This document shows positions 32,321 to 52,940 of a DNA stretch of 64,000 nt, in pieces (the first letter of the stretch is position 1; every line of letters starts with the position of its first letter). The stretch spans positions 1 to 64,000 of the forward strand of contig JAQSYO010000020.1 in assembly GCA_029256105.1 (NCBI GenBank), in the 5' to 3' direction. This DNA is from Herbinix sp. (GTDB lineage Bacteria; Bacillota; Clostridia; Lachnospirales; Lachnospiraceae). The translations under genes and the position numbers were made by a program. Below the pieces are notes generated by a model that saw only the letters and a program-made list of their open reading frames with translations, was not told the origin of the DNA and did no database searches.

Positions 32321-34357
32321 TCAATTAATTTTACTTTTAAGTAGCTTCGTTAGAACATCAAATCCCACTAATATGTCCGAATTATCATATTCTAGCTTAT
32401 TTATTTTAAGTAGTTTTTCTATTGCTTCCTCTAACTCGCTCAAATTATTAATCATGATAATATAATCTAATTTTGAAATCCATTCATAGACTCCCTTTAC
32501 TTTATGATTATAATTTGGTAATACGATACAGGGGGTTTGTGTTATGGCGCAAAACACCATACCGTGCAAACGGTCAGTTATTACAAATTCTGCTTTGGCA
32601 ATTTTACTAATAAATTCTTCTACAACTTCTTTTCTATCAGAAACATTGATATCTATAATTAACTGAGTATCCATGACATGGATGCTCTTCCTATATTTCT
32701 GTACGACTTCTTCGATAAATCTATTATCTTCCCTCGATATTATGCCCTCCGAATCGGCCCGTAATAGAACTGTTGCACCCTTCCGCTCAAAGTTGAATTT
32801 ATTACTATAGTTTGAATATAGTACGATATCCGGTGTCAAAATCACATTACAGTTAAAATACTGTTTTCCCAATTCATAAGAATAACGTTCCCTAAGACAT
32901 AATGTCAAATTCTGGCTCTTTTTTATTATATCTTGATCTTTTTCCAGCTCAAGTTTCCCCTCCTCCGTGTTATCATAATGGATAGTCTGGGGAAATATAA
33001 CTTTTTCGTTCTTACGGAATTTATTCAAAAGATCTCTACGGATATATTCTGCAAGCATATAGACATTCCCAATATTTCCTCCGCCATGCATGCATATTAG
33101 ATCTTTTCTTTTAATAATGAAAGGTAGTGTGCGGTTAACAGCAAAATACTGAGAAGCTGGAACTTCAACAATTGCATATTCCGGTAATACATTCTGTAGA
33201 TATTCTATCTCAGAAATAGCGATATGATGGTCTCCCAGATTCCAAAAATCTTCACACCCGATTAAAAAAAGGCGTTTTTTTGAAAATAGTTTTGATTTAT
33301 TATATTGATATGTCACTGATATTTTTATAGTTTTGTTCAGCATCGTAATATTAAATATATTTAGTTTTTCTAATTTCCTAGATGTCATTAAAATACATTG
33401 CAATAATATTACTATTCCTCTTGCAATCCCATAGTACTTAACTAGGGGCAATATCTTAGTTAAAACTTTCCTCATCTGTAGATTGAAATATTTTTTATCA
33501 TGAATGGAAGATAACGCTTGTTTATAATTATAAAATGTCAATTTACGAAACTGCTCGTTCATTAGGCTATAAAATAATAATGGATATTCCTTATTTATTA
33601 TAGAGTTCTTTAATGATGAAGTTAAAATCTTATCTTCCAAGCACTTACATAAATCTATCGATGCTGAAAATGCAGGTTCTGTTGATGCCTGTGCCCTAAT
33701 GGAATCTTTTCGTATATAATAGTAATATAACGTATCGGTTATGCTGGTAATCTTCCTTGCATGTAACAAAAAATTCAGCACGAACCCAAAATCTTCTGTA
33801 CTTGATTTACTATCCCAAAAAATCAAATTATTTTTTTGTATTAAACCTACCTTAAATAGCCTGTTCCCAACTTCCCAACCAGCCTTGTAATGTAGCAGGT
33901 TATTAATAATATATTCCACCCTGTTATGATCATTAATTACAAATAACCCTTCGCTAAAGGAAACACGGGCTAATAAATTATCAAATTCGTCCACTTTATT
34001 ATAATTAAACATGACTAAGTCAGCTGATGTTGTTACAGCATTCGCTAATGTGACCTCAATTAGGTTTTTGTCCACACAGTCATCGCTATCAAGGAAATAA
34101 ACATACTCCCCAGTAACTACTTTCAATCCGGCATTCTTTGCATCAGATGGGCCTTTGTTTGTTTTATGTATCACTATGATTCTAGGATCATTCCTAGCAT
34201 AATCATCACAAATTACCGGGCAGTTGTCCGTTGAACCATGATCCACCAAGATTATTTCCAAATTATGATATGTTTGTGCAATGATTGATTCGATGCAACA
34301 ACGAATATAATTTTCCACGTTATAGATAGGAATAATAACACTTACTTTATTGTTCAT
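32321..34357 (-). CDS. Glycosyltransferase family 2 - polysaccharide pyruvyl transferase fusion (copy 2)
   Basis: A 678-aa paralogue of the next gene in the operon, with the same order: family-2 glycosyltransferase (VSVIIPIYNVENYIRCC; the usual DDGS reads DHGSTD here; FLDSDDCV) and a pyruvyl transferase domain from about 365 (FLIGCEDFWNLGDHH, ICMHGGGNIGN, LCLRERYSYELGKQY, ITDRLHGMVF). The catalytic-site reading RLHGM is the more canonical of the two copies. The changed DDG motif (VDHG) could weaken metal or nucleotide-sugar binding. The AGGAG site at 34366-34370 sets the start. Confidence 0.85.
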   Translation of the reverse strand: MNNKVSVIIPIYNVENYIRCCIESIIAQTYHNLEIILVDHGSTDNCPVICDDYARNDPRIIVIHKTNKGPSDAKNAGLKVVTGEYVYFLDSDDCVDKNLIEVTLANAVTTSADLVMFNYNKVDEFDNLLARVSFSEGLFVINDHNRVEYIINNLLHYKAGWEVGNRLFKVGLIQKNNLIFWDSKSSTEDFGFVLNFLLHARKITSITDTLYYYYIRKDSIRAQASTEPAFSASIDLCKCLEDKILTSSLKNSIINKEYPLLFYSLMNEQFRKLTFYNYKQALSSIHDKKYFNLQMRKVLTKILPLVKYYGIARGIVILLQCILMTSRKLEKLNIFNITMLNKTIKISVTYQYNKSKLFSKKRLFLIGCEDFWNLGDHHIAISEIEYLQNVLPEYAIVEVPASQYFAVNRTLPFIIKRKDLICMHGGGNIGNVYMLAEYIRRDLLNKFRKNEKVIFPQTIHYDNTEEGKLELEKDQDIIKKSQNLTLCLRERYSYELGKQYFNCNVILTPDIVLYSNYSNKFNFERKGATVLLRADSEGIISREDNRFIEEVVQKYRKSIHVMDTQLIIDINVSDRKEVVEEFISKIAKAEFVITDRLHGMVFCAITQTPCIVLPNYNHKVKGVYEWISKLDYIIMINNLSELEEAIEKLLKINKLEYDNSDILVGFDVLTKLLKSKIN

Positions 34358-38692: not shown

Positions 38693-40219
38693 TTAATTAC
38701 ATATAACTTTACAGGTTGCCGAAACTCCATTATAAGTCGTTGCTGTAATGATACATGAACCTCGATTTTTCATATGAACATTACCACCATATACGGTAGC
38801 TACATTTGGATCTGATGATTTCCAGATTACCGTTCTATTTTGTACGTCTATAGGTAATAATTTATCATTAATTTTCTTAATCTCGTTGACTTTTCCATAT
38901 ATAGTATCCTTATCGAGCGTAATCACCTCAGGCTTTGTTACTGGATCACCCTCTAGCACAGTCACTCTAACATAATCAACCACCATTTCCATCTCTGAAA
39001 TATTTTGATTCGGTATCCCACCTGATGCTCCCACCGCCAGATTCAGTAATAGAAAAAATGGTTCCTTCAAGCCGTCATCCATGATTACATTCGAATAATA
39101 TAAGTTGTTGTCACAATAAAAATTAATTGTTTTATCACTTTTTTCAATCGCATAAGTATGAAATTGAGTTATATCAATATCCTGAGATCTACCAGAATTA
39201 TGACTTAACGAGGTGGCACTTGAAGATGCTTTATAAAATACGCCTCCTTGAACATTCACAACATCGCCAAAGGCTTCTATAATATCAATCTCTCTTGCAT
39301 CTGGCCAGGAATCACCTAAATACCAAAGTTTGCTATAATCTTCTTCAAAATCGGCACCTAACATCCAGAATGCAGGAAAAGCCCCACTTTCTTTTGGTAG
39401 TTTTATTCTTGCCTCAATTCTTGCATTACCAATCTCCAGTTTATTATTCGTATGGAGACTGGCAGATGTCCAATTCCCATTCGCATCTTTTAATGCCTTT
39501 ATTATCAGATTCCCATCCTGTATGAATGCATTATCTATTCTGTTTGTATATTTTTGTAATTCCGAGTTACGTACATACCCATATTCATAGTCCCATTTTG
39601 TACTATCGATAACTGCTGCATTGAAATCATCCTCCCAGATGATATTATTTTCAGCTACATTTATCAAGCAGTTCAGAACAAAGATATATTTATCCGGAGC
39701 AGTAATCGTACAGGTAACCTTTGCATCTCCTTTACCTACAGCAGTCACAGCCCCATTGGAGGCATTGATTTTTATAACTGCTTCATTCGATGTAATCCAT
39801 CTATAGTTAGATTTTGCTATTTTCTTCGCTATATTAATATCAAACTGCTCGTCAACCTTCAAACTCAGCGCAGTTTTTTTTAATTGTGGCCCTTCTTTAT
39901 TTTCACCAACAACAATCTTACATGTCAGTTTTATTTTTTTTAATGCTGCTCCGGTAATCGTGCAGGTTACTGATGCTTCGCCTTCATTTAGCGCTATAAT
40001 TTTCCCATTCTTATCATTTACATGCACAACATTGCTATTAGAAGTTGTCCAATAATATGTTAGTCCTGACCTTTTACCTATAATATTAATGTCATAGGTG
40101 GATGCCTTCTCCAGCTGTATCGTATTTGCAGTAAGTGATATTGTACTACCATAAGCACAGCCTGTGGTTAGAAATATTGCCATTGCAGCAAATAGAAATA
40201 TAAAATAAGAACGCTTCAT
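38693..40219 (-). CDS. Secreted GH16 endo-glucanase-like protein with Big_2 domains
   Basis: A 508-aa exported protein. The N-terminal signal runs to about residue 25, with a possible lipobox (LTTGC). Two Big_2 immunoglobulin-like domains (about 27-105 and 110-190; VHVNDKNGKIIALNEGEASV, VTAVGKGDAKVTCTI) precede the GH16 catalytic domain (about 195-425), whose motif EIDIIEAFG supplies nucleophile and acid/base Glu. A third Big_2 domain is C-terminal (VATVYGG). GH16 enzymes cut beta-1,3 or beta-1,3/1,4 glucans and related polymers. In this locus it probably trims or releases the exopolysaccharide. Confidence 0.88.
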   Translation of the reverse strand: MKRSYFIFLFAAMAIFLTTGCAYGSTISLTANTIQLEKASTYDINIIGKRSGLTYYWTTSNSNVVHVNDKNGKIIALNEGEASVTCTITGAALKKIKLTCKIVVGENKEGPQLKKTALSLKVDEQFDINIAKKIAKSNYRWITSNEAVIKINASNGAVTAVGKGDAKVTCTITAPDKYIFVLNCLINVAENNIIWEDDFNAAVIDSTKWDYEYGYVRNSELQKYTNRIDNAFIQDGNLIIKALKDANGNWTSASLHTNNKLEIGNARIEARIKLPKESGAFPAFWMLGADFEEDYSKLWYLGDSWPDAREIDIIEAFGDVVNVQGGVFYKASSSATSLSHNSGRSQDIDITQFHTYAIEKSDKTINFYCDNNLYYSNVIMDDGLKEPFFLLLNLAVGASGGIPNQNISEMEMVVDYVRVTVLEGDPVTKPEVITLDKDTIYGKVNEIKKINDKLLPIDVQNRTVIWKSSDPNVATVYGGNVHMKNRGSCIITATTYNGVSATCKVICN

Positions 40220-40236
40220 AATATGCCTCCAATTAT

Positions 40237-41403
40237 TTATTTAGAATGAGCTCTGATTCTGAGGGTTCCATCATCCCGGTATATCATCTCACTTAAATTG
40301 CTACTAGAAATTTCACTGCGATTAAATTCCTCCATGGATAAAAATACAACAAACCAACCAAGAAATCCATCAATAACAGTTGATGTAAACATAATCATAA
40401 ATATAAAAATCATCAATATCAATGAATATATGTTTTTCTTCGCTACACTAAAATAACCGTAGACAAATACTATTAATCCAATGATTGACGTTTCAATTAA
40501 GATACGCATGATGTCACAATGTAATCTATTAATATAAGCACCTTGATTATCAAAATAATATTTTATACTTCCCAACCCGTAATTTGTAATATCTGTTGTT
40601 ATCACTTCTCTTAACTGGTCGAACCTTCCCATAGTGAATTGACCAAAATCGATGTTGAACGTTGCTTGGAACCAGAATGCAAATTGATCGGTCAATATCG
40701 CATAAAGTGCCAACGGTGAACTAATAAATACTAATTTTATCGTATTTTCCAGATACTTGTTCACTTTTACCTTCCGAACACTCCAGCCTAACAATAACAC
40801 TGCTATCACAAACACGACATGCAGACGTTTATAAGATAATATTCCGAAAAACAGAGCGAGTAAGCATCTAACTTTTTTGTTTTTTACATAGTAATAATAG
40901 AACAAGAGGGTATAGATATGAGCAGTTACTGATTCATACGGAGAGAAAGAATTTACAAAAGATATCTTCTTTATATGTTCTATATCCAAGATATTTGCAA
41001 ATTGATAAAAAAATAATACGATATGTCCGATCAATAGACTATCAAAATAAAAATCTCGATTCTCATTTCGATCAACATTTACTATTACAAACACCATAAT
41101 ATAAGGAACAATCAAATAAAACATATCCCACATCAACAAAAACTTCATACCATTCATCACAGAATATAGTAATGTAATAATTCCTAAGATTATCGGAACC
41201 GACATAATATGTATCAAATCATCGATATTATAGATTGGATTATGTAAATTGCCAATTATTATGACAATACCTATCGCAACTACGATAAACATGAAAATAT
41301 ATTTAAAGTCGTCATTGATATTATTACGCATATCCCCTATGATCCAAGCTATAACAAAAATTAAATATGCTATTCTAATCCATCTATAATCGACTTTTAT
41401 CAT
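40237..41403 (-). CDS. Wzy-like polysaccharide polymerase
   Basis: A 388-aa membrane protein with about ten hydrophobic segments and a longer outside loop (about 240-285; TDQFAFWFQATFNIDFGQFTMGRFDQLREV). The layout and its place beside glycosyltransferases and a flippase fit an O-antigen-type polymerase that joins repeat units. Sequence motifs in this family are weak, so the call leans on topology and context. It is 17 bp upstream of the GH16 gene. Confidence 0.7.
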   Translation of the reverse strand: MIKVDYRWIRIAYLIFVIAWIIGDMRNNINDDFKYIFMFIVVAIGIVIIIGNLHNPIYNIDDLIHIMSVPIILGIITLLYSVMNGMKFLLMWDMFYLIVPYIMVFVIVNVDRNENRDFYFDSLLIGHIVLFFYQFANILDIEHIKKISFVNSFSPYESVTAHIYTLLFYYYYVKNKKVRCLLALFFGILSYKRLHVVFVIAVLLLGWSVRKVKVNKYLENTIKLVFISSPLALYAILTDQFAFWFQATFNIDFGQFTMGRFDQLREVITTDITNYGLGSIKYYFDNQGAYINRLHCDIMRILIETSIIGLIVFVYGYFSVAKKNIYSLILMIFIFMIMFTSTVIDGFLGWFVVFLSMEEFNRSEISSSNLSEMIYRDDGTLRIRAHSK

Positions 41404-41422
41404 GCTTTACCCTGCTTTTCAT

Positions 41423-42319
41423 TTATTTTTCATTTATATTTCTATGTATCATTTCAATAATTTCATTATCTACGTTAGGGTCAACCTTTCTGGCATAAAA
41501 CATATTTGAGTTAGCCAAAATATCAAAGTCTTCTTTTCTCCAGGTATATGGTTTTCCCCTAGTCCAATCTATCAGTCTCATATTTGGATTTTTATTCAAA
41601 TATTTTGATTGGTATAGATGCTCCCTATATTGAGAATTAATTAAAACAGTCTGAAGAAATAATTCATCCCCACTTAAGCTATATTGAAATATTTTACCAA
41701 TCCAATCCTCTTGCTGTATTACATATAAGGCAAAATCATGTGTTATACTAAACCAATTTGTCCCCTTTTGGAATATGACTTTTACCCCTTTAATTCTGTC
41801 AATTTTAAGAAGCTTTTGTATGAAAAGTAATATTTTATCAACTGCGTAAAGTCCCAACAATAATAAATTCTTACGATTTCTTCCATATACATCTTGAAAT
41901 AAATAGTAATATTTAATACGTTCCAAATATTGACTGTCAACAATTTGCTCATCAAAGGCTAAAAATTCGCATCCTTTGTTTTGATCAAAAAACTGATGTA
42001 TTTCATTTTGCGTTTTGATAACCAAATCGCTTCCAGACAAAAGATGGTAATAATCATATTGATGCCTCGATGTTGCTTCTTTTAGTAAATCCAATTCACA
42101 TAATATTCCACTATAGGCCGCCCATTTGACATCACGCTGCCTTATAAAAAAAACGGAGGAAAAACGAATCTCTGATTTCAACTTAGCATAGTCAGTAAAG
42201 TTTGCTTTTTTATCTATATGGACATAGATGTCATTACGAGGGTCATCCAGTGATTCTATTAATTGTTTCAAATATTGAAACTGGCTATGTGCCATGATGA
42301 GATATGCATGTTTTCCCAT
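41423..42319 (-). CDS. Core-2/I-branching type glycosyltransferase (GT14-like)
   Basis: A 298-aa cytoplasmic enzyme. KHAYLIMAHSQFQYLKQLIESLDDPRNDIYVHIDKK and YYHLLSGSDLVIKTQNEI are characteristic of bacterial PF02485 proteins, which transfer GlcNAc or xylose residues. I place the start at 42319 (MGKHAYL), where the domain begins after a GGGGGG site, rather than at a distant upstream start that would overlap the preceding GT4 gene. Confidence 0.82.
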   Translation of the reverse strand: MGKHAYLIMAHSQFQYLKQLIESLDDPRNDIYVHIDKKANFTDYAKLKSEIRFSSVFFIRQRDVKWAAYSGILCELDLLKEATSRHQYDYYHLLSGSDLVIKTQNEIHQFFDQNKGCEFLAFDEQIVDSQYLERIKYYYLFQDVYGRNRKNLLLLGLYAVDKILLFIQKLLKIDRIKGVKVIFQKGTNWFSITHDFALYVIQQEDWIGKIFQYSLSGDELFLQTVLINSQYREHLYQSKYLNKNPNMRLIDWTRGKPYTWRKEDFDILANSNMFYARKVDPNVDNEIIEMIHRNINEK

Positions 42320-42356
42320 ATAACCCCCCATTCCGAATAAATCCCAATCTTCTTTA

Positions 42357-43469
42357 CTAATATTTTGTATATAATTGCAAATGTCTTTTCGCAATACTAT
42401 CCCAATTAAAATTTGACAAATCATAATCTGGACAATGTCCCGGATCAACACTATCTTCTTCGCTTAATAATTCGTTCAACTGATCAAGAAGGCTATTAAT
42501 ATTACCTTTTTCGAAAACCTTACCACTATTTTGAATTACTTCTACATTTTCTGCGATATTACTTACCAAACACTTTCTTTCATAACTCATTGCTTCCAAC
42601 AAACTTAAGGGCATACCCTCTATATCACTAGGCAGAATATAGGCCAAACAATTACTATATAACTCCTCACGTTCCACCCCATCTACAAAACCTGTCATTA
42701 TGATTCTGTTGTCTTTCTCTGCCAAGGATTTTATCTTCTCCATATATTCATCTGAATGACTGCTTCCGCCAGCTACTACCAACTTAATATTGGTGTCTAG
42801 ATTTTGATAAGCTTCTATTAGATAATGAAGTCCCTTTTCAGGTACTATTCTTGCTAAAAACAGAAAATAGTTATTTCGTTTTAAGCCGTATTTGTTCTTT
42901 ATAACTTCTGCTTCAATCGAGTATGGAACATTGATACCATTTGGAATATAGTGCGTCTCACGGTTATAGGTTTCAAGAAAATACTCTTGTGCATTTTTAG
43001 ATAATACGATTACTTCATCCGCATATTTCGCTGCAATTTTTTCACCCAGCAAAAGATATTTTTTTGCTAACCCTCCCCATTTTACTCTTTGCCAATCTAG
43101 TCCATGGATCGTAGCAATTGTTCTGATTTTAAATATATGGGGAATAATCAACATAACGCAAGGACCCATCGAATGGTAGTGGATCAAATCATATTTTCCA
43201 AATAATGCTCTCAATGTCGCTAAAAACGAATAAATTAATGCATCAAAACTTTTCTTATTGATTGTTGGGATACTTATTATTTTAATTCCTTCATAGTATC
43301 GTTTGCTGTATTGTGGATGGTTTTTATTTGCTATATGCTTTCCTCTTCGGTTATAAACCTCAACCTCATGCCCACTATTGATGAGGCATTTTGATAATTC
43401 TTCCACTACAACCTCTACCCCACCCTCTCTCGATGGGATACGTTTATGACCAATCATTGCTATTTTCAT
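42357..43469 (-). CDS. Glycosyltransferase family 4
   Basis: A 370-aa GT-B enzyme. The N-terminal MKIAMIGHKRIPSREGGVEVVVEEL and C-terminal FLARIVPEKGLHYLIEAY, with the Glu-rich EGMPLSLLEAMSY (EX7E), are typical of retaining family-4 transferases such as rhamnosyl or galactosyl transferases. The ribosome-binding site is weak, and an in-frame stop just upstream fixes the start at 43469. Confidence 0.9.
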   Translation of the reverse strand: MKIAMIGHKRIPSREGGVEVVVEELSKCLINSGHEVEVYNRRGKHIANKNHPQYSKRYYEGIKIISIPTINKKSFDALIYSFLATLRALFGKYDLIHYHSMGPCVMLIIPHIFKIRTIATIHGLDWQRVKWGGLAKKYLLLGEKIAAKYADEVIVLSKNAQEYFLETYNRETHYIPNGINVPYSIEAEVIKNKYGLKRNNYFLFLARIVPEKGLHYLIEAYQNLDTNIKLVVAGGSSHSDEYMEKIKSLAEKDNRIIMTGFVDGVEREELYSNCLAYILPSDIEGMPLSLLEAMSYERKCLVSNIAENVEVIQNSGKVFEKGNINSLLDQLNELLSEEDSVDPGHCPDYDLSNFNWDSIAKRHLQLYTKY

Positions 43470-43586
43470 ATCTTATATAGCTATCTATTTCATAGCTTTC
43501 TCCTTTCAATTTCAAGAGCAAGCCCAATTATTCATGTTTGATTTCATCAATGAAAAAATATTCAATGCCTTTTCAATCAAGCATTA

Positions 43587-44627
43587 TTAATACGAAAAAA
43601 ATTTGCCTCTAAGTGCTGTTTTATTTTTATAATAAATTCCTAATATAAAAAATCTTCTTAGTTGCAAACTGGCTGCCAAAGTGTATAGTTGCAGTTTTGC
43701 ATAACGTAAACGGGTAATCCTAACATTCTTATGTGCTGTTTTAAATGGTTCCTTCTTTAATAATTCGTAAAATTCTTTCAACTTTTCTTTATCATGACTG
43801 TAATACATGTAGAGCTGTTCAAAAATATTTTCGATACAATATGCGTTTAACGCTTCGTAAAACACCGCTTCTTTTTTTCTCACCTTAATAAATTCTTCAA
43901 GATATCCACGTACTTGGTATGACATCTCCGTGATTTGTGGGGTAAGCGACTGACTCTCTGATAATTCGTTAATTCGATAAAAATAACCCGCATTCGCGAA
44001 GAAACGAACATCTTTTGCGTATTCAAGAACATTTAGGTTAAAGAGCATATCTTCTGCTCTCTTTAACCCTTTCATAAAGAAAATCTCATTTTGTTTAATC
44101 ATCTCGGTTTTATATAATTTACACCACGGTGTGCAAAGATTAATCCCATTATATTGCTTTGAATACCGCAATATAATTAGTTGTAATTCTTTCATCTCAC
44201 TTGGTTTAAAGGAATAATTCGTTAGGTTAACCGGGCTCGGTATGATTATATCCCCGATTACCTTTGAATAATTAAAAACTATCACATCCGGTGTATTATT
44301 GTTCAAATATTCTACCAGATTACTGCATAAATTCACATCCAGCCAATCATCAGCATCCAGGAACATCAAATATTCCCCCGAAGCTTCCTTTATTCCAATG
44401 TTCCTTGCATTCGAAACCCCTTGATTTTCAATATGTAATAATTTAATGATAGGGAACTGTTGTGCATATTCATCGCATATTTTCCGCGCTTCATTTTTTG
44501 ATCCATCATCCACGATAATTACTTGTATATCTTGATATGATTGTTCAACGACACTATTAAGGCATTTTCGCAAATACTTATCTTCTGTATTATATACAGG
44601 TATAATAATTGATATTATGGCTATCAT
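43587..44627 (-). CDS. Glycosyltransferase family 2
   Basis: A 346-aa family-2 transferase: ISIIIPVYNTEDKYLRKCLNSV, VDDGSKNEARKICDEY, NARNIGIKEASGEYLMFLDADDWL. The C-terminal third is basic and poorly conserved. The AGGAG site directly abuts the ATG, so initiation may be weak or re-initiation from the gene 12 bp upstream may be used. It adds one sugar of the repeat unit; donor unknown. Confidence 0.88.
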   Translation of the reverse strand: MIAIISIIIPVYNTEDKYLRKCLNSVVEQSYQDIQVIIVDDGSKNEARKICDEYAQQFPIIKLLHIENQGVSNARNIGIKEASGEYLMFLDADDWLDVNLCSNLVEYLNNNTPDVIVFNYSKVIGDIIIPSPVNLTNYSFKPSEMKELQLIILRYSKQYNGINLCTPWCKLYKTEMIKQNEIFFMKGLKRAEDMLFNLNVLEYAKDVRFFANAGYFYRINELSESQSLTPQITEMSYQVRGYLEEFIKVRKKEAVFYEALNAYCIENIFEQLYMYYSHDKEKLKEFYELLKKEPFKTAHKNVRITRLRYAKLQLYTLAASLQLRRFFILGIYYKNKTALRGKFFSY

Positions 44628-44639
44628 CTCCTGAGCTAC

Positions 44640-45857
44640 TTAGTTTAAGTTTGAATCCTTATCAACAAATTGCTGATAAATTTCAACCATCTTATGTGCA
44701 TATGCTTCTAAAGAAATCATTTTTTCTCTTTTTTCAATACAATTTTTTGACATCACTATAATTCTCTCGTTGTCTTGATATAAGGTATTAATTTCAATGG
44801 CTAACTTATCTTCGTTAATGTCTTCAATTATAATACCGGTTTCATTATCTTCGATTAATTCAGGAATACCTCCCATCTTGGATGCAATTACAGGCGTCCC
44901 TAAAGACTTTGATTCAAGAACTGCCAGTGGGCTATTCTCATACCAAATGGAAGGGTATACGGAAAACTTTGCTCTTCTAATTAATGTGTCCAGTTCTTCA
45001 CCCGATTTGAAGCCTACAAATTCTACATTGGGAATGTCCTTACATTTATCAGCAAGTGGGCCTGTCCCTGCAATCTTAAAATTAATATGCGACAGTTTCC
45101 TGCAGCAATCAAGAAACATTTCAAGTCCCTTTTCTTCCGACAATCTTCCAAAATAAAGAACATAATCACCTTTTGTGCTGTAATCTTCTATTTCTTTCAA
45201 TTCAATAAAATTATGTATTGTTATCGTTTTTCCATAGAATTGATTTGATTGATGTAATTTATCTTCTATGAAATGACTTGGGCAAATATATAAATCAACC
45301 AATTGATAGGTCTTACGCTTCCTGTATAATATCGCTTCAATGGAACCAATTGCACTTTTTATTTTTGAGGAGGCAATACAATTCTTTTTTGTACAATTCC
45401 ACTTACTTCCATTTAAACACAATTCGCATGTCTTTTTCGTATGAATATCAAACATCAGATGATTCGGGCAAAGCATTTGATAATCGTGAACCGTTTGTAC
45501 CATTGGAATATGATGTTTATGTATCTCTTCTATAATGGACGGCGTTAATTGAAAATTTATATTATTCAAATGTACGATATCCGGTTTAAATTTCTGAATC
45601 ACATTTCTTACTTTTCTTTTCGCTTCAAATGAATATATAATCCGGAAGGGATAGAATAATTTTTCGATACCCTTTGTATGAAAATCCATTTCGGTCGTGT
45701 ATTCGTTTGCACTGTTTTTTACAAGATTTTTCTCATCATACATTCCAAAATATTCAACCTGATGTCCAGCTTGTTCCAAGAAATTCCCAATTTTCAGGAA
45801 ATAGGTTTCTGCTCCACCCCTTGCATATAAAAATTTATTTATCATCAAAATCTTCAT
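44640..45857 (-). CDS. Glycosyltransferase family 4
   Basis: A 405-aa GT-B enzyme: MKILMINKFLYARGGAETYFLKIGNFLEQAGH at the N terminus, LYFGRLSEEKGLEMFLDCC in the middle and ENSPLAVLESKSLGTPVIASKMGGIPELI at the donor site (EX7E). A Cys-rich insert (CELCLNGSKWNCTKKNC, near 140-160) is seen in a subset of GT4 proteins of capsule loci and may bind a metal. A GAGAGG site precedes the start. Confidence 0.9.
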   Translation of the reverse strand: MKILMINKFLYARGGAETYFLKIGNFLEQAGHQVEYFGMYDEKNLVKNSANEYTTEMDFHTKGIEKLFYPFRIIYSFEAKRKVRNVIQKFKPDIVHLNNINFQLTPSIIEEIHKHHIPMVQTVHDYQMLCPNHLMFDIHTKKTCELCLNGSKWNCTKKNCIASSKIKSAIGSIEAILYRKRKTYQLVDLYICPSHFIEDKLHQSNQFYGKTITIHNFIELKEIEDYSTKGDYVLYFGRLSEEKGLEMFLDCCRKLSHINFKIAGTGPLADKCKDIPNVEFVGFKSGEELDTLIRRAKFSVYPSIWYENSPLAVLESKSLGTPVIASKMGGIPELIEDNETGIIIEDINEDKLAIEINTLYQDNERIIVMSKNCIEKREKMISLEAYAHKMVEIYQQFVDKDSNLN

Positions 45858-45938
45858 GATAGTTCCTCTCTAAGTAGTTATAATCTTGTCTATTACAGTA
45901 GATAGCCAGCTAACCCACGCTCTCTTTACTGGCTAATT

Positions 45939-46673
45939 TTACTTATTAATTTTACTTACTAATTTTGCTTTCGATTTTGTACGTTTGCTTACATATCTCT
46001 GATTTTTATAATAATCAAAGTTCTTCATAATATGTCCAAATTCAGATGTGTCAATTTTGTTCAATATGATTCCTATTATATTGCCTCCTGATTTATATAA
46101 AACATCCCTTGATTCTCTGACACTTCTTCTCTCAGTTTTTGCATATTCTGATACTAAAATGATACCATCCATTTTATTTGCCATAACATTAGGATCCACC
46201 GATGTTGTAATGGAGGGCATATCTAAAATTATATAATCATATTCCTTATAAAGCTGATCCATTAGCTCGTCCATGTTACTGGAGCACAATAGACTAATGG
46301 GATTCACTGCTCTTCCTCCGCTCGGTATATAGAACAGATTCTTATAATTCGTATCATATACCGCCTGATGATATAAACATTCCCCTAATAAAAAATCAGA
46401 TAAACCGATCTCAACTTCCTGATTTAATCTTTTATATCTTGAAATCTTACGTAAATCTCCGTCAATTAGGATTGTTTTCCATCCGGCATTTGCCATAGAA
46501 ATTGCTATACTGATTGCAAGTGTTGTTGTACCCACTCCCGGTTCGCACCCACTCAGCATAAACTTTTTATACCCATCCTTTTGCTTTTTTAGATGAATTT
46601 CTACGATAATTCGATCGATTGCATCATTAATAAATTGATTTGTATTACTATAAAAATCGATTAGTTTTTTCAT
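45939..46673 (-). CDS. CpsD-like capsular regulator with altered Walker A
   Basis: A 244-aa MinD-like ATPase of the CpsD/BY-kinase family. Walker A' (ILIDGDLRK) and Walker B (YIILDMPS) are intact. The Walker A position reads EPGVGTTTLA, so Thr replaces the nucleotide-binding Lys of EPGxGKST. The C-terminal tail has only a small tyrosine group (FDYYKNQRY). It partners the Wzz-like protein encoded just upstream (2-bp gap) to control chain length. The start at 46673 is used because the longer frame overlaps the wzz-like gene. Confidence 0.85.
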   Translation of the reverse strand: MKKLIDFYSNTNQFINDAIDRIIVEIHLKKQKDGYKKFMLSGCEPGVGTTTLAISIAISMANAGWKTILIDGDLRKISRYKRLNQEVEIGLSDFLLGECLYHQAVYDTNYKNLFYIPSGGRAVNPISLLCSSNMDELMDQLYKEYDYIILDMPSITTSVDPNVMANKMDGIILVSEYAKTERRSVRESRDVLYKSGGNIIGIILNKIDTSEFGHIMKNFDYYKNQRYVSKRTKSKAKLVSKINK

Positions 46674-46674
46674 G

Positions 46675-47340
46675 TCATTTTTTATCTCCTTCCATTTTAT
46701 TATTAAACAATGGAATAATACCAATAATATCAATCTCCCCGTCTAATCCTATATCAGATAAATTATGTACTTTACTGGTAAATACCTCTCGCATTATAAA
46801 CCATACACACAATAAAACAATGCCGGCCAATGTAAAGATAATCCTGAATTTCAACTGTTCTGTCTGTTTATTATAGGATAAATCAGCCGCAATCGCTTCA
46901 TCTAACAAACGTACCGAATCGTTGGATGTAATATTATTTACCTCTTCAATAAAAACCTCAGCGACAGCATTTGCAACCTTAATAGCTAGATTAATATCGG
47001 AGGAAGTGGCGCTTATCCCTAATACCAGTGTTGTTGAATAAGATTTAACAGAAATCATTTCTTTGATGCTATCCGCGTCCATATTGAAAATATTTAACGA
47101 TGTAGCTGCCCGTTCACTAACCTTTGAACTGGTAATAATCTCTGAATATAAGGTTAGCGCCGAATGATCCATTAAGGAATAAACCGTAGTTTCCGCTGTA
47201 TACTCATCTTCCCGTGAATTATTATTGGTAATCAGATAAGCTAATATATAACATACTGTTCCAATTATTATTATCAGCCACCATTTTTTTAAAATTGCTT
47301 TTAAGCATCTTCTTAAATCTATATTTATTTCTTTGTTCAT
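46675..47340 (-). CDS. Wzz/CpsC-like chain-length determinant protein
   Basis: A 221-aa membrane protein with TM1 at about 20-37, a coiled outside domain (about 40-165) and TM2 at about 167-187, then a short cytoplasmic tail (about 190-221). This is the CpsC/CapA form, which activates a separate CpsD-type ATPase through its tail. It sits directly ahead of the CpsD-like gene. Confidence 0.87.
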   Translation of the reverse strand: MNKEINIDLRRCLKAILKKWWLIIIIGTVCYILAYLITNNNSREDEYTAETTVYSLMDHSALTLYSEIITSSKVSERAATSLNIFNMDADSIKEMISVKSYSTTLVLGISATSSDINLAIKVANAVAEVFIEEVNNITSNDSVRLLDEAIAADLSYNKQTEQLKFRIIFTLAGIVLLCVWFIMREVFTSKVHNLSDIGLDGEIDIIGIIPLFNNKMEGDKK

Positions 47341-47541
47341 ATCTTCCTCCTTACATAATCACTGATTAATGCTGTCACAAAACAAATTTCCATTCCACTA
47401 TCTAGAACCAGCATTATTAATCTCTTCATGAATTTATTTTTGTCGATTTTTCTTTAATTTTGCAATACAACTCCACTGTTGTCAATTAATTTATTCAATA
47501 TTTTTGTATTAATATTTTAATGATTCAGATACTACAAATAA

Positions 47542-48642
47542 TTAGTCCTCATATACTTTTTTGTGTAAATTATTTATATTTTTATTAAAATTAATTCCGA
47601 TCACAGACATACGATTTATTGTTAAAAAAGAATAGGTATCTTCCATAGGAATACTCCACTGTACTATTTCATAATTTTTATATGTAGGTAAAGACATAAA
47701 TAAAGATATAATTTTTTTCTCACTCAGATTTGTGGTAACCTGGGGCAAGACCTGGTCCGACATTTTTTTAATTTTAATAAGATTCAAATCCTTTATTTTA
47801 TCAAAGATTTTTTGTAATACCTCTCGTTGTCTGGCTGTTCTTTCAAAATCGGTACCAATATAACGATTTCGTACATATCCCAGTGTTTGTTTGCCATTAA
47901 GAACATAATTTCCTGTTTTTGTTAGGTGATCGTTGCTCTCTTTAACTCCGTTTTGTCGATTTATTTCACTTATATAATTGTTGATTATAGGAATATATTT
48001 CTCTTTCACCTCCAGAGAAACACCGCCAATAAAATCAACAACATCTATGAAAGTATAAAAGTCTATTGATATATATTTATCTATATCAATTTGAAAGTTT
48101 TCTTCAATAGTATCAATCAACAGCTCCGCCCCTCCATAAGCATAAGCAGCATTAAGACGGTTATTATTATGTGAAGGAATCTTGAGATAAATATCTCTTA
48201 ATAGTGATGTAAGGATTATTTTTTTGGTTTTTGAATTAATCGAAACAATAATCATAGCATCGGAACGACCCGAACCACCGGCTTCCCTGGAATCACAACC
48301 AATAAGTAGTATATTATAAACATCGTTACTACTAATCTCTTGTTTATTTTCCTTCGTATTCTCGCGTATAACATTTTCTATATTATCGATATCTTCTTGT
48401 GGTGAATTTGTAATGTCCATTTGTTGTCCTTCAATTGCGGTTTCCCCTATATCCTCCTCTGTATTGATATTCCCTGTTACTTCATTCATTGTTACTTCAC
48501 TCTCTGAATTATCCTTAATAAGATTCATTTTATTAATATACATATGAATTATTATATATCCAGCGATGCATACAACAACCATAATACTAAGCATCGTAAT
48601 AATGCTAATTTTAACAATTTTTAAGACTTTGTCTTTTTTCAA
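47542..48642 (-). CDS. LytR-CpsA-Psr family protein
   Basis: A 366-aa protein with one N-terminal membrane helix (about 10-33), an acidic Asn/Glu linker (40-105) and an extracellular LCP domain. Conserved pieces are NILLIGCDSREAGGSGRSDAMIIV, SLLRDIYLKIP, RLNAAYAYGG and YVRNRYIGTDFERTARQREVL, including the catalytic Arg residues. LCP enzymes attach lipid-linked glycopolymers to peptidoglycan. Translation begins at TTG after GGAGGTGG. This is the anchoring step for at least part of the exopolysaccharide. Confidence 0.92.
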   Translation of the reverse strand: MKKDKVLKIVKISIITMLSIMVVVCIAGYIIIHMYINKMNLIKDNSESEVTMNEVTGNINTEEDIGETAIEGQQMDITNSPQEDIDNIENVIRENTKENKQEISSNDVYNILLIGCDSREAGGSGRSDAMIIVSINSKTKKIILTSLLRDIYLKIPSHNNNRLNAAYAYGGAELLIDTIEENFQIDIDKYISIDFYTFIDVVDFIGGVSLEVKEKYIPIINNYISEINRQNGVKESNDHLTKTGNYVLNGKQTLGYVRNRYIGTDFERTARQREVLQKIFDKIKDLNLIKIKKMSDQVLPQVTTNLSEKKIISLFMSLPTYKNYEIVQWSIPMEDTYSFLTINRMSVIGINFNKNINNLHKKVYED

Positions 48643-48816
48643 TAAAAATCCACCTCCTAATTCTATAGTTAATCATGGAATTATACTTTTATTGAAGTTA
48701 TAACATCCCGTGGTTAATTATTTTAGTTAATTGTTGCTTTTCGTTATTACCCTGGAATCTACATTTTTCACAGAAACAAAACGCCAAGCAACATCTTCAA
48801 ATTTTTTTAATAATTC

Positions 48817-48845
48817 ATTATACTATATTGTATGCCAATTTGAAA
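48817..48845 (-). promoter_or_regulatory. Probable promoter of the lcp-wzz-cpsD segment
   Basis: On the minus strand TTTCAA (48845-48840), a 17-bp spacer and TATAAT (48822-48817) precede the LCP gene. The leader would be about 170 nt and can fold a GTTGCTT...AAGCAAC stem, with no terminator in it. The -35 is weak. Confidence 0.5.
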
Positions 48846-48920
48846 GATTAATTTTAATTAAATGTAAATTAATTTTCAAACCATAAATTATCAGAATTCA
48901 TGGCTGCATTTTATATATTT

Positions 48921-48964
48921 TAATAAAATAGGGTTTTAGACACCTCCGTATCCAAAACCCTTTT
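48921..48964 (-). terminator. Terminator after the priming transferase gene
   Basis: A 14-bp stem (48930-48943 with 48948-48961, one or two mismatches) with a 4-nt loop is followed on the minus strand by ATTTTATT. It separates the priming transferase from the rest of the locus, so the locus has at least two transcripts. The rest of 48643-49099 shows only the promoter noted above. Confidence 0.75.
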
Positions 48965-49099
48965 CAAATTATTTACAACTCTCATAATAAAGCAGAAACT
49001 AATCAAATTGTGAGTATAGAAGTTATGATTTGAAAGAAGAAAGACAACCTTATTATCGATATTATTAAGTACCTTACCATTGCCTTTTACGGGATCAAT

Positions 49100-50488
49100 T
49101 TAATAAGCATCGTCATTTTTACTGATCAGTTTTATGACAGTCTTAAATATAATCTTAAAGTCCAATAATATATCCCACTTGTCTATGTATATCGTATCTA
49201 ACTCAACAACTTTTTCAAAATTTGTTATTTTACTTCTACCACTAACTTGCCACATTCCAGTGAGTCCTGGCTTGATACTAACTCGCCTCCAATAATGTCT
49301 CTTATATTTTTCTACTTCATCGAGTGTCGGAGGTCTTGTACCAACTAGGCTCATATCACCCTTTAATACATTAAAAAACTGTGGTAGTTCATCTATATTA
49401 TTTTTGCGAAGAAACTTGCCAACTTTCGTTATACGGGGATCATCTTTTATCTTAAACATGAACCCATCATTCATCTCATTTAAACTCATAAGATCTTTCT
49501 TTTTATCTTCTGCATTCGCACTCATACTTCGAAATTTATAGATATAAAATTGGCGACCATTCCGACCAATTCGTAACTGTTTAAAAATTATCGGTCCTTT
49601 CGCATCTTCGATTTTTATAGCAATTGCAGCTAGTAGCATAAAAGGTGAGAAACCAATAATACCAACGATACTTCCAATAATATCCATAGATCTTTTAATG
49701 GCTCTGGATACACTGTTTAAGACTACAGTATGATAGGTTACCACCGGATAATTTCCCATGCTGCCAATATAGCTATGTGCTTCAATTGGATAATTGAAAT
49801 CCATAATTAAACCAACTGTAACACCCATATCTAAACAAACCCCAATATGCGGATTAAAATCCATTGTGTTACTTCTTTGATCCATTATATAGACATAATC
49901 AATTCCATTATCATGCAATATTTTTTCTAAGTCTTCTATATTTCCCAGATTTCCCTCTTGCTCTCCCTCTCCATCAAGCGCTACATAGCCTACGATATTT
50001 AAGTTTAAATTACTCTTTTTAACATAATTGATAAATCGATCGTACTTTTTAATGTCCCCCAGTAGTAGGGTACGTGGACTACTTTTAATATTATTTTTTA
50101 CAATCACTCGTTGGAATAATGCGCTTAACATTAATAAAACATATTCACTAACTAAAAATTCTAGATAAAATTTAGGCTCTATATTAGCTCTGCCCACATA
50201 AAATAATAAAATTGATACGATTACTGTAGCAAATAGAATTGACTTTGTTATATATTTAATTATTCGATCTGGATAAAAAAATAAATTTATATTATACAGT
50301 GATCCGCCCTTATTCAATAAAATACATAATACGTTAAAACTTATACATAGAACAAAATAATGTCCATAATCCGCAAATATATCTATTCCTGTGATAATTC
50401 CTGTAAGAAGAGCTGCGACTATTCCAACCAAGAAATCACTTACCATATAATAAAAATTAGTTTTTACATGTCGATAAAATTTCCCCAT
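49100..50488 (-). CDS. Undecaprenyl-phosphate sugar phosphotransferase (WcaJ/WbaP-like)
   Basis: A 462-aa polyprenyl-phosphate sugar-1-phosphate transferase that starts repeat-unit synthesis on the membrane lipid. The N-terminal half has four hydrophobic helices (about 12-125) and a CoA-binding-like domain (130-245). The C-terminal catalytic domain has [59 protein letters not shown] and [14 protein letters not shown]. The start has an AGGTGA site. It is first in the locus and divergent from the riboswitch-controlled gene. Confidence 0.93.
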
Positions 50489-50597: not shown

Positions 50598-50706
50598 GAA
50601 ATATTTGACACAAAAAGTCGTTTTTGCACATAATTGTTAAACAAAATAGATAAGCTTTCATAAATTTGCGGATATTTTTCATATTTTAATTATTAAAAAC
50701 AATTTA

Positions 50707-50735
50707 GTGACAAATTTTACACTATATGCTATAAT
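50707..50735 (+). promoter_or_regulatory. Promoter of the tandem-riboswitch transcript
   Basis: GTGACA (50707-50712), a 17-bp spacer and a perfect TATAAT (50730-50735). Transcription would start near 50742, about 30 nt before the first riboswitch. Confidence 0.75.
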
Positions 50736-50769
50736 AACCATGTTAAAACTTAATAATAAAATTAAAAAG

Positions 50770-50850
50770 ATAATAGCAAACTTATCGAAAGGTAAGGACG
50801 CAAAGCTAAGGGTCTTAGGTCCTCGTGACTATGATTGCCAGTTGCCTAAT
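50770..50850 (+). promoter_or_regulatory. c-di-GMP-I (GEMM-I) riboswitch, first of two
   Basis: The sequence shows the conserved GEMM-I core: AGCAAAC, a stem closed by a CGAAAG tetraloop, GGACGCAAAGC, the second stem, then GATTGCCAGTTGCC. In this family the GGACGCAAAG segment and tetraloop form the ligand pocket that binds cyclic di-GMP. It is followed 18 nt later by a terminator hairpin, so it probably acts on transcription. Confidence 0.92.
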
Positions 50851-50867
50851 TAATAAATGGTTACCGG

Positions 50868-50898
50868 CTCCTTGCATATCTTTGCAAAGGAGTTTTTT
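50868..50898 (+). terminator. Intrinsic terminator of the first riboswitch
   Basis: CTCCTTGCA (50868-50876) pairs with TGCAAAGGAG (50883-50892; one bulge) and is followed by six T. It is the likely expression platform of the first GEMM-I element. Just after it AAGGAGG and a nine-codon frame (50915-50944, MISNSKKRP) are found before the second riboswitch. Confidence 0.85.
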
Positions 50899-50956
50899 GC
50901 ATATATAAGGAGGAATGATTTCTAATAGCAAAAAACGTCCATAAAATATGATACAT

Positions 50957-51040
50957 GTTAATAGCAAACTCACTGAAAAGTGAGGACGCAAAACTTAGGG
51001 TCTAAAGTCCGAAGGACTACGATCGCCAGTTGCCACGGTT
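50957..51040 (+). promoter_or_regulatory. c-di-GMP-I (GEMM-I) riboswitch, second of two
   Basis: It again has AGCAAAC, a GAAA-capped stem (CTCACT/AGTGAG), GGACGCAAAAC, a second stem (AGTCC/GGACT) and GATCGCCAGTTGCC. One base of the usual GCAAAGC is changed to GCAAAAC. No strong terminator follows; the ribosome-binding site is about 65 nt downstream, so translational control or a weak CTCAT/ATGAG hairpin could be the output. Confidence 0.88.
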
Positions 51041-51116
51041 ATGATATTGATTTTTATCTCATACTAACGTAAATGAGAGTATTTAAAGTCAATGCCTATA
51101 TTTTAAGGAGATGTAT

Positions 51117-52940
51117 ATGTTTAATTTAAAGTCAATTATGAAACACGTAATTCCTGTTGCGTTAAGTACAATATTAATAATATTGTTATTGAGTTCTTCC
51201 AGTGTAGTTTTTGCAAGATCAAAATCTTATAATAATGCATATAGTTATAAGAAACATGGCCCAACAACGATTACTCCTACCGTCACTCCTAAGATTACTC
51301 CTACCATCACTCCTAAGATCACTCCTACAGTCACTCCTAAGATCACTCCTACTGTAACTCCTACCGTCACTCCTAAAATCACCCCTACAATCACTCCTAC
51401 TGTAACTCCTACTGTAACTCCTACGATTGCACCTACTGATGTTCCAATAGATCCTTCTTTATCCGGCTTTAATAAAGCAGTTTATGTTAAAAATTTTGGT
51501 GCCTATGGTGATGGCATTCACGATGACACAAAAGCGATTAATCAAGCACTTAACAGTGGAGCTGATGCTGTGGTCTTTGAAGCAAACGCTTCTTATAAAG
51601 CAAATGATTATATCTCAATGGATACACCCGGTGTTACAGTAATAGGTAATAACGCTACCTTGTTCACCGATAATGATTATAGAAGCAGAACAAACTTTTA
51701 TGAATGGTTCTTTAATGTAGTTGCAAGTAATATTACAATCAATGAACTTAACCTCGAAGCGAAGGAAAGTATATTGGTTGGATATAAGACTCAGTTTGTA
51801 ATCATGAATGCATCAAACGTAACGGTAAATAAATGCGATTTCACCATTCCCTCAACAGTATTATCTGGTGGCGCATCCCACGCGATTGAATATAGTAATC
51901 TCGATCTATTTACCGGATGGCACAATATTATAATACAAAATTCTACTTTTACAAACTTAGCTGATACGAATGCAGGTGTATGTGCAGAATTTCGTGATAT
52001 TTATAACAAAGGTGCTAGTGGATTATCTTTTACCAACAATACCAGCACCTCAAATTGCCATGATGAAATTATTGCAATGTTCACAGGATCAACTACTACT
52101 CTTTCCGACATAAGCGTTACTAATAACTATATTAATGCTATAGCTGGAAACGTATCTATTCCCAGAACACTTGGAATAAGTTTAGGATATGATGGATTTG
52201 GTTTGAGTAATATAACCTTTACAGGTAATACAGTAAACCTTTTTGCTTCCTATGCTGGAATCGCAGTTGGTGATTCAGACAATGTTACTGTAAGTGATAA
52301 TACTATTAATTTTACTGCTCTTACTAATACGGATAGAGCAAGTGTATTTAAAGGCTCAACAGTCGATAACAATATTAATGTCACAAATAACACCATAACA
52401 ATCGCTAGTAATACCACAGGAAATTTCGGTGGCATTTCAGATGGATATATCAACTTTACCTCCAATGAAATAACCTGTAATTCTGTTGTGACTGATGCAT
52501 TATTTTCAAATAACTCAGTAGTAAAAGGTAATACCATTATTGTTAATTCGGAAGCTTCACGCTTAGGTAATTCTTTAATCACCTTCGAAGGTAATAATGT
52601 AACTTTTAACAGTACGATTTCAACAATGTTTGAATTTTACAATAAAACACTTACGAGTGACGTTAATATTAATAATAATACTATAGTTTGTAGAAAAGAC
52701 TCTCCTTCAAATAGTACAATCTTTATGTTAAATGGAACAACCATTAACGGAAATGTATTTTCATTTTCAAATAATAAAGTAACTACTCCTAATTCGAGTA
52801 CTGCTAAATCATTTTATTATATGGCAATAACCGATACGACAACACAAAAAATTGTATTAACCAATAATTTGCTTTCAAACTATTCCAACACCTATGTGGA
52901 AGGTGGAATAACACCTATCTATAATATAATTTATGCTTAA
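51117..52940 (+). CDS. Secreted beta-helix protein with Thr/Pro repeat linker, under c-di-GMP riboswitches
   Basis: A 607-aa exported protein. A signal peptide (about 1-33, ending near VVFARS) is followed by a rod-like linker of TPTVTPKI-type repeats (about 48-108). A parallel beta-helix of the pectate-lyase-3 kind follows (VYVKNFGAYGDGIHDDTKAINQAL, then repeated ITFTGNTV-like coils to the end). Such folds bind or cleave polysaccharides. No sortase motif, SLH or dockerin domain is seen. The ATG at 51117 sits 6 nt after AAGGAG. Regulation by two c-di-GMP riboswitches and the position next to the exopolysaccharide genes suggest a matrix function. Confidence 0.85.
   Translation: MFNLKSIMKHVIPVALSTILIILLLSSSSVVFARSKSYNNAYSYKKHGPTTITPTVTPKITPTITPKITPTVTPKITPTVTPTVTPKITPTITPTVTPTVTPTIAPTDVPIDPSLSGFNKAVYVKNFGAYGDGIHDDTKAINQALNSGADAVVFEANASYKANDYISMDTPGVTVIGNNATLFTDNDYRSRTNFYEWFFNVVASNITINELNLEAKESILVGYKTQFVIMNASNVTVNKCDFTIPSTVLSGGASHAIEYSNLDLFTGWHNIIIQNSTFTNLADTNAGVCAEFRDIYNKGASGLSFTNNTSTSNCHDEIIAMFTGSTTTLSDISVTNNYINAIAGNVSIPRTLGISLGYDGFGLSNITFTGNTVNLFASYAGIAVGDSDNVTVSDNTINFTALTNTDRASVFKGSTVDNNINVTNNTITIASNTTGNFGGISDGYINFTSNEITCNSVVTDALFSNNSVVKGNTIIVNSEASRLGNSLITFEGNNVTFNSTISTMFEFYNKTLTSDVNINNNTIVCRKDSPSNSTIFMLNGTTINGNVFSFSNNKVTTPNSSTAKSFYYMAITDTTTQKIVLTNNLLSNYSNTYVEGGITPIYNIIYA
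51270..51430 (+). repeat. Tandem repeat coding for the Thr/Pro linker
   Basis: Repeats built from ACTCCTA(C/A)(C/G)(G/A)T(C/A) units of 12 and 24 bp encode the ITPTVTPK linker. Being multiples of 3, length changes keep the frame and would alter only linker length. Confidence 0.85.

Follow-up and report, generated by a model that had tools for sequence, protein, structure and literature searches.

Two GEMM-I aptamers upstream of a secreted beta-helix protein gene in Herbinix sp.: a candidate terminator-then-ribosome-binding-site c-di-GMP-I tandem

Introduction

How might two riboswitch aptamers of one class, carried on a single leader, divide the control of one gene between them? The question is raised by contig JAQSYO010000020.1 of a Herbinix sp. 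draft genome (G000; 101 contigs, 98.5% complete), where a pair of GEMM-I aptamers, the class that binds cyclic di-GMP (c-di-GMP) and is also called c-di-GMP-I, stands upstream of a gene for a secreted beta-helix protein. The window analyzed is a stretch of 64,000 nucleotides (nt) of this contig, and positions refer to its + strand unless stated otherwise. A preliminary description of the DNA had proposed two GEMM-I cores behind one good promoter, a terminator belonging to the first core and no clear one for the second, control of the gene both by termination and near translation, and a Thr/Pro-linked secreted product acting on the polysaccharide of an adjoining locus. The explanation preferred here, to which we give a probability of roughly 0.4, is a bi-mechanism c-di-GMP-I tandem in which c-di-GMP would turn transcription off by termination at the first aptamer and favor closure of the Shine-Dalgarno (SD) sequence at the second, the gene product being a putative secreted glycan enzyme. 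It starts from three facts at the level of sequence, namely two aptamers in one leader, a kept terminator after the first, and no convincing terminator after the second.

The Tandem Leader and Its Relatives

Both aptamers match the Rfam family RF01051 (GEMM-I, c-di-GMP-I) over model positions 1–87 of 87, against a gathering score of 35: copy 1 at 50765–50849 (73.4 bits, E 1.6e-12) and copy 2 at 50953–51037 (74.1 bits, E 1.1e-12), each with an A at model column 11. They are the sole matches above a gathering score in the window, and the two cores first described are confirmed by the covariance model, at coordinates that had been within about 5 nt of these. Downstream of copy 2 lie a hairpin without a T run (51046–51093) and the SD sequence AAGGAG (51105–51110). 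The listed ATG at 51111 touches this SD, so translation probably starts at the ATG at 51117, giving a protein of 607 amino acids (51117–52940). Upstream of copy 1, a consensus scan lists the promoter-like site GTGACA-17-TATAAT at 50707–50735, with 11 of 12 consensus bases and a TG before the -10 element. The single good promoter proposed earlier is retained as a promoter-like site and loses its distinction: a second site of equal match (TTGACA-18-CATAAT, 11 of 12) was found by the scan at 50605–50634, and such sites are not in excess across the region (20, against a shuffle mean of 17.0 with a standard deviation of 4.5).

Six GEMM-I aptamers were found in the same genome, comprising the window pair, a second pair on contig C93, and single copies on contigs C21 and C97. 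The C93 pair also lies upstream of a beta-helix gene, whose product has 65% identity to the window protein and which is divergent from a gene whose product is, by eye, evidently similar to the sugar transferase of the window. With the window protein as query, relatives were found in nine of 195 genomes, six of them in the genus with seven genes between them; a separate scan of genome contigs for relatives gave one relative only. Tandem GEMM-I aptamers stand upstream of four of the genus genes, on the window contig (C60), on C93, on contig C31 of genome G005, and on contig C146 of genome G016; values for the four leaders are given below in this order. Their eight aptamers score 67.6 to 76.0 bits each. 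The SD is kept in these leaders as AAGGAGG or AAGGGGG, the lower stem of the hairpin between aptamer 2 and the SD is recognizable in all four, and the promoter-like site at 50707 is recognizable in the same position in C93 and G016, not in G005. As to the other genus genes, the relative in G024, a match that contains a stop, has no GEMM-I in the upstream stretch read, and those in G026 and G029 start at a contig edge, so that their leaders are not visible. In another genus, a more distant relative (G042, 30% identity) lies behind a single GEMM-I with an A at the same position, in a leader that by eye has a hairpin and T run.

Nine further doublets were picked by eye among the matches listed for the wider family. 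Four of these carry a hairpin only between the copies and lack one after copy 2 (L144, where it is weak, L145, L146, and L150); L147 has a second hairpin that contains the SD, L142, L143, and L148 have both hairpins, and L149 has neither. On sequence, a layout of terminator followed by ribosome-binding site (RBS) may be wider than the window gene.

A Terminator Outside the First Aptamer

The first copy has its own terminator, as had been proposed, at 50867–50898 (stem 50867–50893, T run 50893–50898; -12.4 kcal/mol). It is listed by a hairpin script that permits odd hairpin lengths, was listed neither by the consensus scan nor by a stricter script, and can be seen directly in the sequence. In all four leaders the copies are separated by a hairpin with a T run (-12.4, -10.9, -13.6, and -13.2 kcal/mol), which begins 17, 16, 16, and 15 nt past the aptamer; the stems differ, and in every leader the terminator forms without the 3′ strand of the aptamer. 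Cd1, an OFF switch, has its terminator strands outside the aptamer, whereas in pilM, an ON switch, an aptamer strand is part of the terminator (PMC9262584); Bc4, also an ON switch, involves nucleotides from P1 and P3 (PMC4759541). With strands outside the aptamer, as in Cd1, the copy-1 terminator is by its layout of the OFF kind, and this layout favors the OFF direction for copy 1, which pairing does not prove. Under such a scheme aptamer 1, when bound to its ligand, would keep its 3′ strand, an antiterminator would be blocked and transcription would stop, as in Cd1. In folds of the RNA before the 3′ arm of the terminator is made, pairing of the 5′ arm with the aptamer region falls when the aptamer is forced, from 0.81 to 0.46, 0.77 to 0.26, 0.65 to 0.32, and 0.79 to 0.30.

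A Proposed Helix Over the Shine-Dalgarno Sequence

Copy 2 offers a different arrangement. The hairpin script found no hairpin with a T run after it in C60, G005, or G016, in agreement with the earlier remark that the window leader has no clear second terminator, and the C93 hairpin has a poor tail (GTTATTTT); copy 2 was accordingly rejected as a terminator-type switch. Twelve nucleotides of its 5′ flank, at 50938–50949 (UCC A UAAAAUAU), are able to pair around one A.A mismatch with 51098–51109 (AUAUUUUA A GGA), a strand placed by the leader alignment and local folds that overlaps the SD and whose pairing covers its GGA. This proposed SD-sequestering helix, here called P0, is present in the local minimum-free-energy structure of all four leaders. 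When the 30-nt flank was shuffled, pairing of the SD and eight upstream bases matched that observed in 0, 6, 37, and 3 of 300 cases. In G005 the SD AAGGGGG stands opposite CCC, whereas the other leaders have GGA opposite UCC; we read this CCC/GGG change as compensatory, with the MAFFT columns of that flank not in register. In messages that read through the terminator, aptamer 2 would sit within the long-range helix formed by its 5′ flank and the SD, and its folding, if stabilized by ligand, could help to hold the start site closed. If this is true, a kept terminator-then-RBS tandem would bring control at a second level and allow mRNA that has already been made to be silenced.

The stretch between the aptamers (50908–50944, +) also contains an SD-like AAGGAGGA and a nine-codon frame from ATG 50915 to TAA 50944, the end of which overlaps the 5′ strand of P0. 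A leader peptide encoded there was considered and rejected, as the frame is not kept in the leaders of the relatives.

The Contact Base and the Ligand

A deviation that had been missed in the preliminary description, the A at the contact base of both copies in place of the G typical of c-di-GMP-selective members, makes the choice of ligand part of the problem; it bears on that choice and not on membership of RF01051. The labels G20 and A20 used for this base follow what we take to be Vc2 numbering. The corresponding column 11 of the GEMM-I model directly precedes the first P2 pair. A14 of the cyclic GMP-AMP (cGAMP) riboswitch is likewise directly before the first P2 pair (PMC6274999), and c-di-GMP binders are reported to have G at the contact position where c-AMP-GMP binders have A (PMC9481103). 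Elsewhere in the Herbinix genome the base is A and C in the two C93 copies, A on C97, and G on C21. Thirty-four of the 45 GEMM-I matches listed in a survey of the genus were read, with 17 G, 16 A, and 1 C, and 29 loci among the matches listed for the wider family, which are those with the best scores and so biased to consensus, gave 26 G and 3 A. A C also occurs at this base in copy 1 of L143, from another genus.

The difference that had been noticed at first, GCAAAAC in copy 2 for GCAAAGC in copy 1, had been taken as a hint of different affinity or ligand. It proves to be a P3 stem pair (model columns 41 and 80), G.U in copy 1 and A-U in copy 2, and is ruled out as a ligand-changing difference because it is not a ligand contact; C93 copy 2 has the same.

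An enzyme able to make cGAMP was sought in the genome and two relatives. GGDEF loci were read for all 23 matches of the Herbinix genome and for 30 of 31 in G005 and G016, one G005 match being unread. The Ser of Hypr cyclases was in none of these 53 loci (48 Asp, 3 Glu, 1 Gln, and 1 Asn) and thus in none of the 23 of the genome itself. The Asn belongs to L125, on contig C198 of G016, a GGDEF domain in which it replaces the base-contacting Asp while GGEEF is intact; the domain is not canonical. No SMODS synthase was matched in the draft genome by a search that was positive in 3 of 14 control genomes. The c-di-GMP-II-GCG family also had no match in the genome, and as the controls were equally without a match this gives no evidence either way. 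Because no cGAMP-making enzyme was found, c-di-GMP is taken as the likelier ligand of the window aptamers on these sequence comparisons, and would be read by A20-type pockets; an A-bearing aptamer has been described as gaining c-AMP-GMP affinity and losing at most slight c-di-GMP affinity (PMC9481103).

The two single copies have settings of their own. The C21 aptamer (L001, 1501–1585, - strand) is the only G-bearing GEMM-I of the six and lies upstream of a 3-oxoacyl-ACP synthase III-like gene. The A20 aptamer on C97 (1501–1602) closely precedes an open frame (L006, 4–1398, - strand), beside a CotH gene; this frame joins an RVT_1 reverse-transcriptase domain (E 3.6e-14) to a PTPS (6-pyruvoyl tetrahydropterin synthase) domain (E 4.8e-6).

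The Beta-Helix Protein and the Adjoining Locus

In the product a signal-peptide-like N-terminus is accompanied by a linker of Thr/Pro repeats and a long, repetitive, beta-rich C-terminal part, and the secreted, Thr/Pro-linked character first ascribed to it is upheld; the linker is short or absent in the G005 relative. A His-Asp-Glu cluster at residues 315–317 is conserved. In Pfam the window protein stays below every cut-off, with only a sub-cut-off match to PF12218, and PF12708 (pectate-lyase-like beta-helix; cut-off 27) is unmatched at E 0.01. The C93 paralog reaches 29.8 against PF12708, the G016 and G024 relatives fall below the cut-off at 21.9 and 16.4, and that of G005 is not listed. NCBIfam and PHROGs gave only weak low-complexity or tail-spike matches. 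A profile search returned a beta-1,3-glucanase (2.6e-6, over 32 positions), a glucan 1,3-beta-glucosidase (4e-4), and a cell wall surface anchor protein (6.5e-4). An AlphaFold2 model built from a two-sequence alignment is beta-rich (predicted local distance difference test score, pLDDT, 67.6; predicted template modeling score, pTM, 0.79). Foldseek gave 327 matches to it at E ≤10, of which the four at ≤0.001 are all galactosidases of the glycoside hydrolase family 110 (GH110) type; lower matches include RbmB (9ozl, E 2.0e-3 to 3.4e-3), a mannuronan epimerase, the adhesin PfbA, and the HK620 tailspike, and TMq is 0.25–0.48 for the rows named here. The protein likely has a role on glycans, as an enzyme or a binder.

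The adjoining locus is divergent, at 38693–50488 on the - strand, and encodes a sugar transferase, LytR/CpsA/Psr, Wzz, and ParA-like ATPase proteins, glycosyltransferases, and a GH16-Big_2 protein, so that its earlier designation as an exopolysaccharide locus is sound. From fold and neighborhood together it is plausible that the protein acts on the polysaccharide of this locus. The enzyme would then cut or modify that exopolysaccharide, and would be released once c-di-GMP falls. Farther along the - strand are two long, similar glycosyltransferase-like proteins (30054–32093 and 32321–34357), which by eye resemble a protein with glycosyltransferase family 2 (GT2) and polysaccharide pyruvyl transferase parts encoded beside the C93 beta-helix gene.

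Weighing the Explanations

A number of observations weigh against the bi-mechanism tandem. In unconstrained full-leader folds P0 has probabilities of 0.01, 0.17, 0.45, and 0.35 and is weakest in the window copy, partly because two similar aptamers cross-pair there; with aptamer 1 forced the values are 0.42, 0.32, 0.45, and 0.75. When aptamer 2 is forced, P0 stays the same or drops slightly and never gains strength, and an effect of ligand on P0 is thus something that we infer and these energies do not predict. The shuffles are also weaker when SD bases only are counted (9, 9, 49, and 20 of 300 match the observed pairing), and the four leaders are related to each other rather than independent. 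The antiterminator test was not significant, an equal drop being given by 97, 28, 45, and 53 of 300 shuffled linkers. Copy 2 of C93 (L070, 2033–2117, +), otherwise full-scoring at 70.9 bits, has a C at the contact base. Of the double control first envisaged, the terminator of copy 1 is supported, and control near translation by copy 2 is a case argued from sequence, with P0 weak in full-leader folds. The poor showing of P0 in those folds, most of all in the window, together with the G005 shuffles (37 of 300) and the C of C93 copy 2, would suit a passive second copy, that is, a duplicated aptamer whose platform is lost or weak, leaving the copy-1 terminator alone to regulate and P0 as constitutive attenuation or chance pairing in A+T-rich RNA. 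The literature has an example, Bc1, of a GEMM-I whose binding of c-di-GMP leaves its genes unaffected (PMC11218506). This account seems rather doubtful to us, given that the flank pairs with the SD in the local folds of all four leaders and that all eight aptamers keep scores of 67.6 to 76.0 bits, so that copy 2 is under constraint.

The direction of switching might also be reversed, with ligand favoring read-through of the first terminator and opening of the SD, and the protein being a matrix adhesin or matrix-building enzyme of the sessile state. The tandem GEMM-I Bc3-5 is ON (PMC4759541), PfbA is among both sequence and fold matches, and the antiterminator test gives no help to the OFF direction; the terminator, made in all four leaders without the aptamer 3′ strand, is nevertheless unlike those of pilM and Bc4, and we regard the ON version as unlikely. 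That both aptamers are GEMM-Ib-type sensors of 3′,3′-cGAMP we consider quite improbable. The A at the contact position is that of c-AMP-GMP binders (PMC9481103) and for cGAMP a Geobacter GEMM-Ib has a selectivity of about 1200-fold (PMC6456294), but the absence of Hypr Ser from the 53 GGDEF loci of three genomes and of a SMODS match from the draft genome speaks against it, as does the at most slight loss of c-di-GMP affinity in an A-bearing aptamer (PMC9481103). A bolder proposal, also unlikely, is that the A20 GEMM-I aptamers of the genus form a sensory branch of their own, in cells whose cyclases, as far as found, are ordinary diguanylate cyclases, and respond to c-di-GMP at a threshold different from that of the G20 aptamer of the same genome or to another cyclic dinucleotide, with a double lock of terminator and RBS gating a polysaccharide-modifying enzyme. 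If that were true, G, A, and C at one contact base would set different thresholds or ligands within one genome.

Comparison With Known Systems

Tandem GEMM-I aptamers are themselves well known. In one survey, tandem c-di-GMP-I riboswitches number 347 doublets and 12 triplets, more than any other class surveyed, and are classed as pseudo-cooperative; the survey defines bi-mechanism tandems, for which its table has only S-adenosylmethionine (SAM) classes, and its authors note that not all tandems were evaluated (PMC9481103). A literature search, with most subscription journals outside its reach, found no title on a bi-mechanism c-di-GMP-I tandem, and the terminator-then-RBS c-di-GMP-I tandem looks like a new variant. 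The window leader shares its aptamer class, and the placing of same-class copies on one leader, with the surveyed doublets and with the triple Bc3-5 (PMC9481103, PMC4759541); in Bc3-5 every copy is an ON switch with a transcriptional platform (PMC4759541), whereas window copy 2 lacks a convincing terminator. The SAM-II/SAM-V tandems likewise have a terminator after the first aptamer and RBS control proposed for the second, with another ligand and other aptamer classes (PMC9481103); in the window tandem RBS control is a prediction. Dual control of transcription and translation by a single GEMM-I has been reported for Bc1, where it is exerted by a long platform (PMC11218506).

Cd1 of Clostridioides difficile and window copy 1 are both GEMM-I with a terminator outside the aptamer strands; Cd1 is a single copy upstream of flagellar genes and its direction was measured, whereas that of copy 1 is read from layout (PMC9262584). 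For the product, the nearest functional parallel among the fold matches discussed here may be RbmB of Vibrio cholerae, a secreted polysaccharide lyase required for proper dispersal, which is a beta-helix acting on the cell's own exopolysaccharide (PMC7768729). The likeness to RbmB is one of fold (13–15% identity, TMq 0.32–0.33 in the 9ozl rows), and the window gene may place a matrix enzyme of the RbmB kind under the control of a riboswitch. The Geobacter GEMM-Ib cGAMP riboswitches have, like the window copies, an A at the contact base (PMC6456294, PMC8835794); unlike in the Geobacter setting, no Hypr cyclase was found among the GGDEF loci read here. With G, A, and C contact bases in one genome and no Hypr cyclase found, this Herbinix lends itself well to the question of what is sensed by natural A20 and C20 aptamers.

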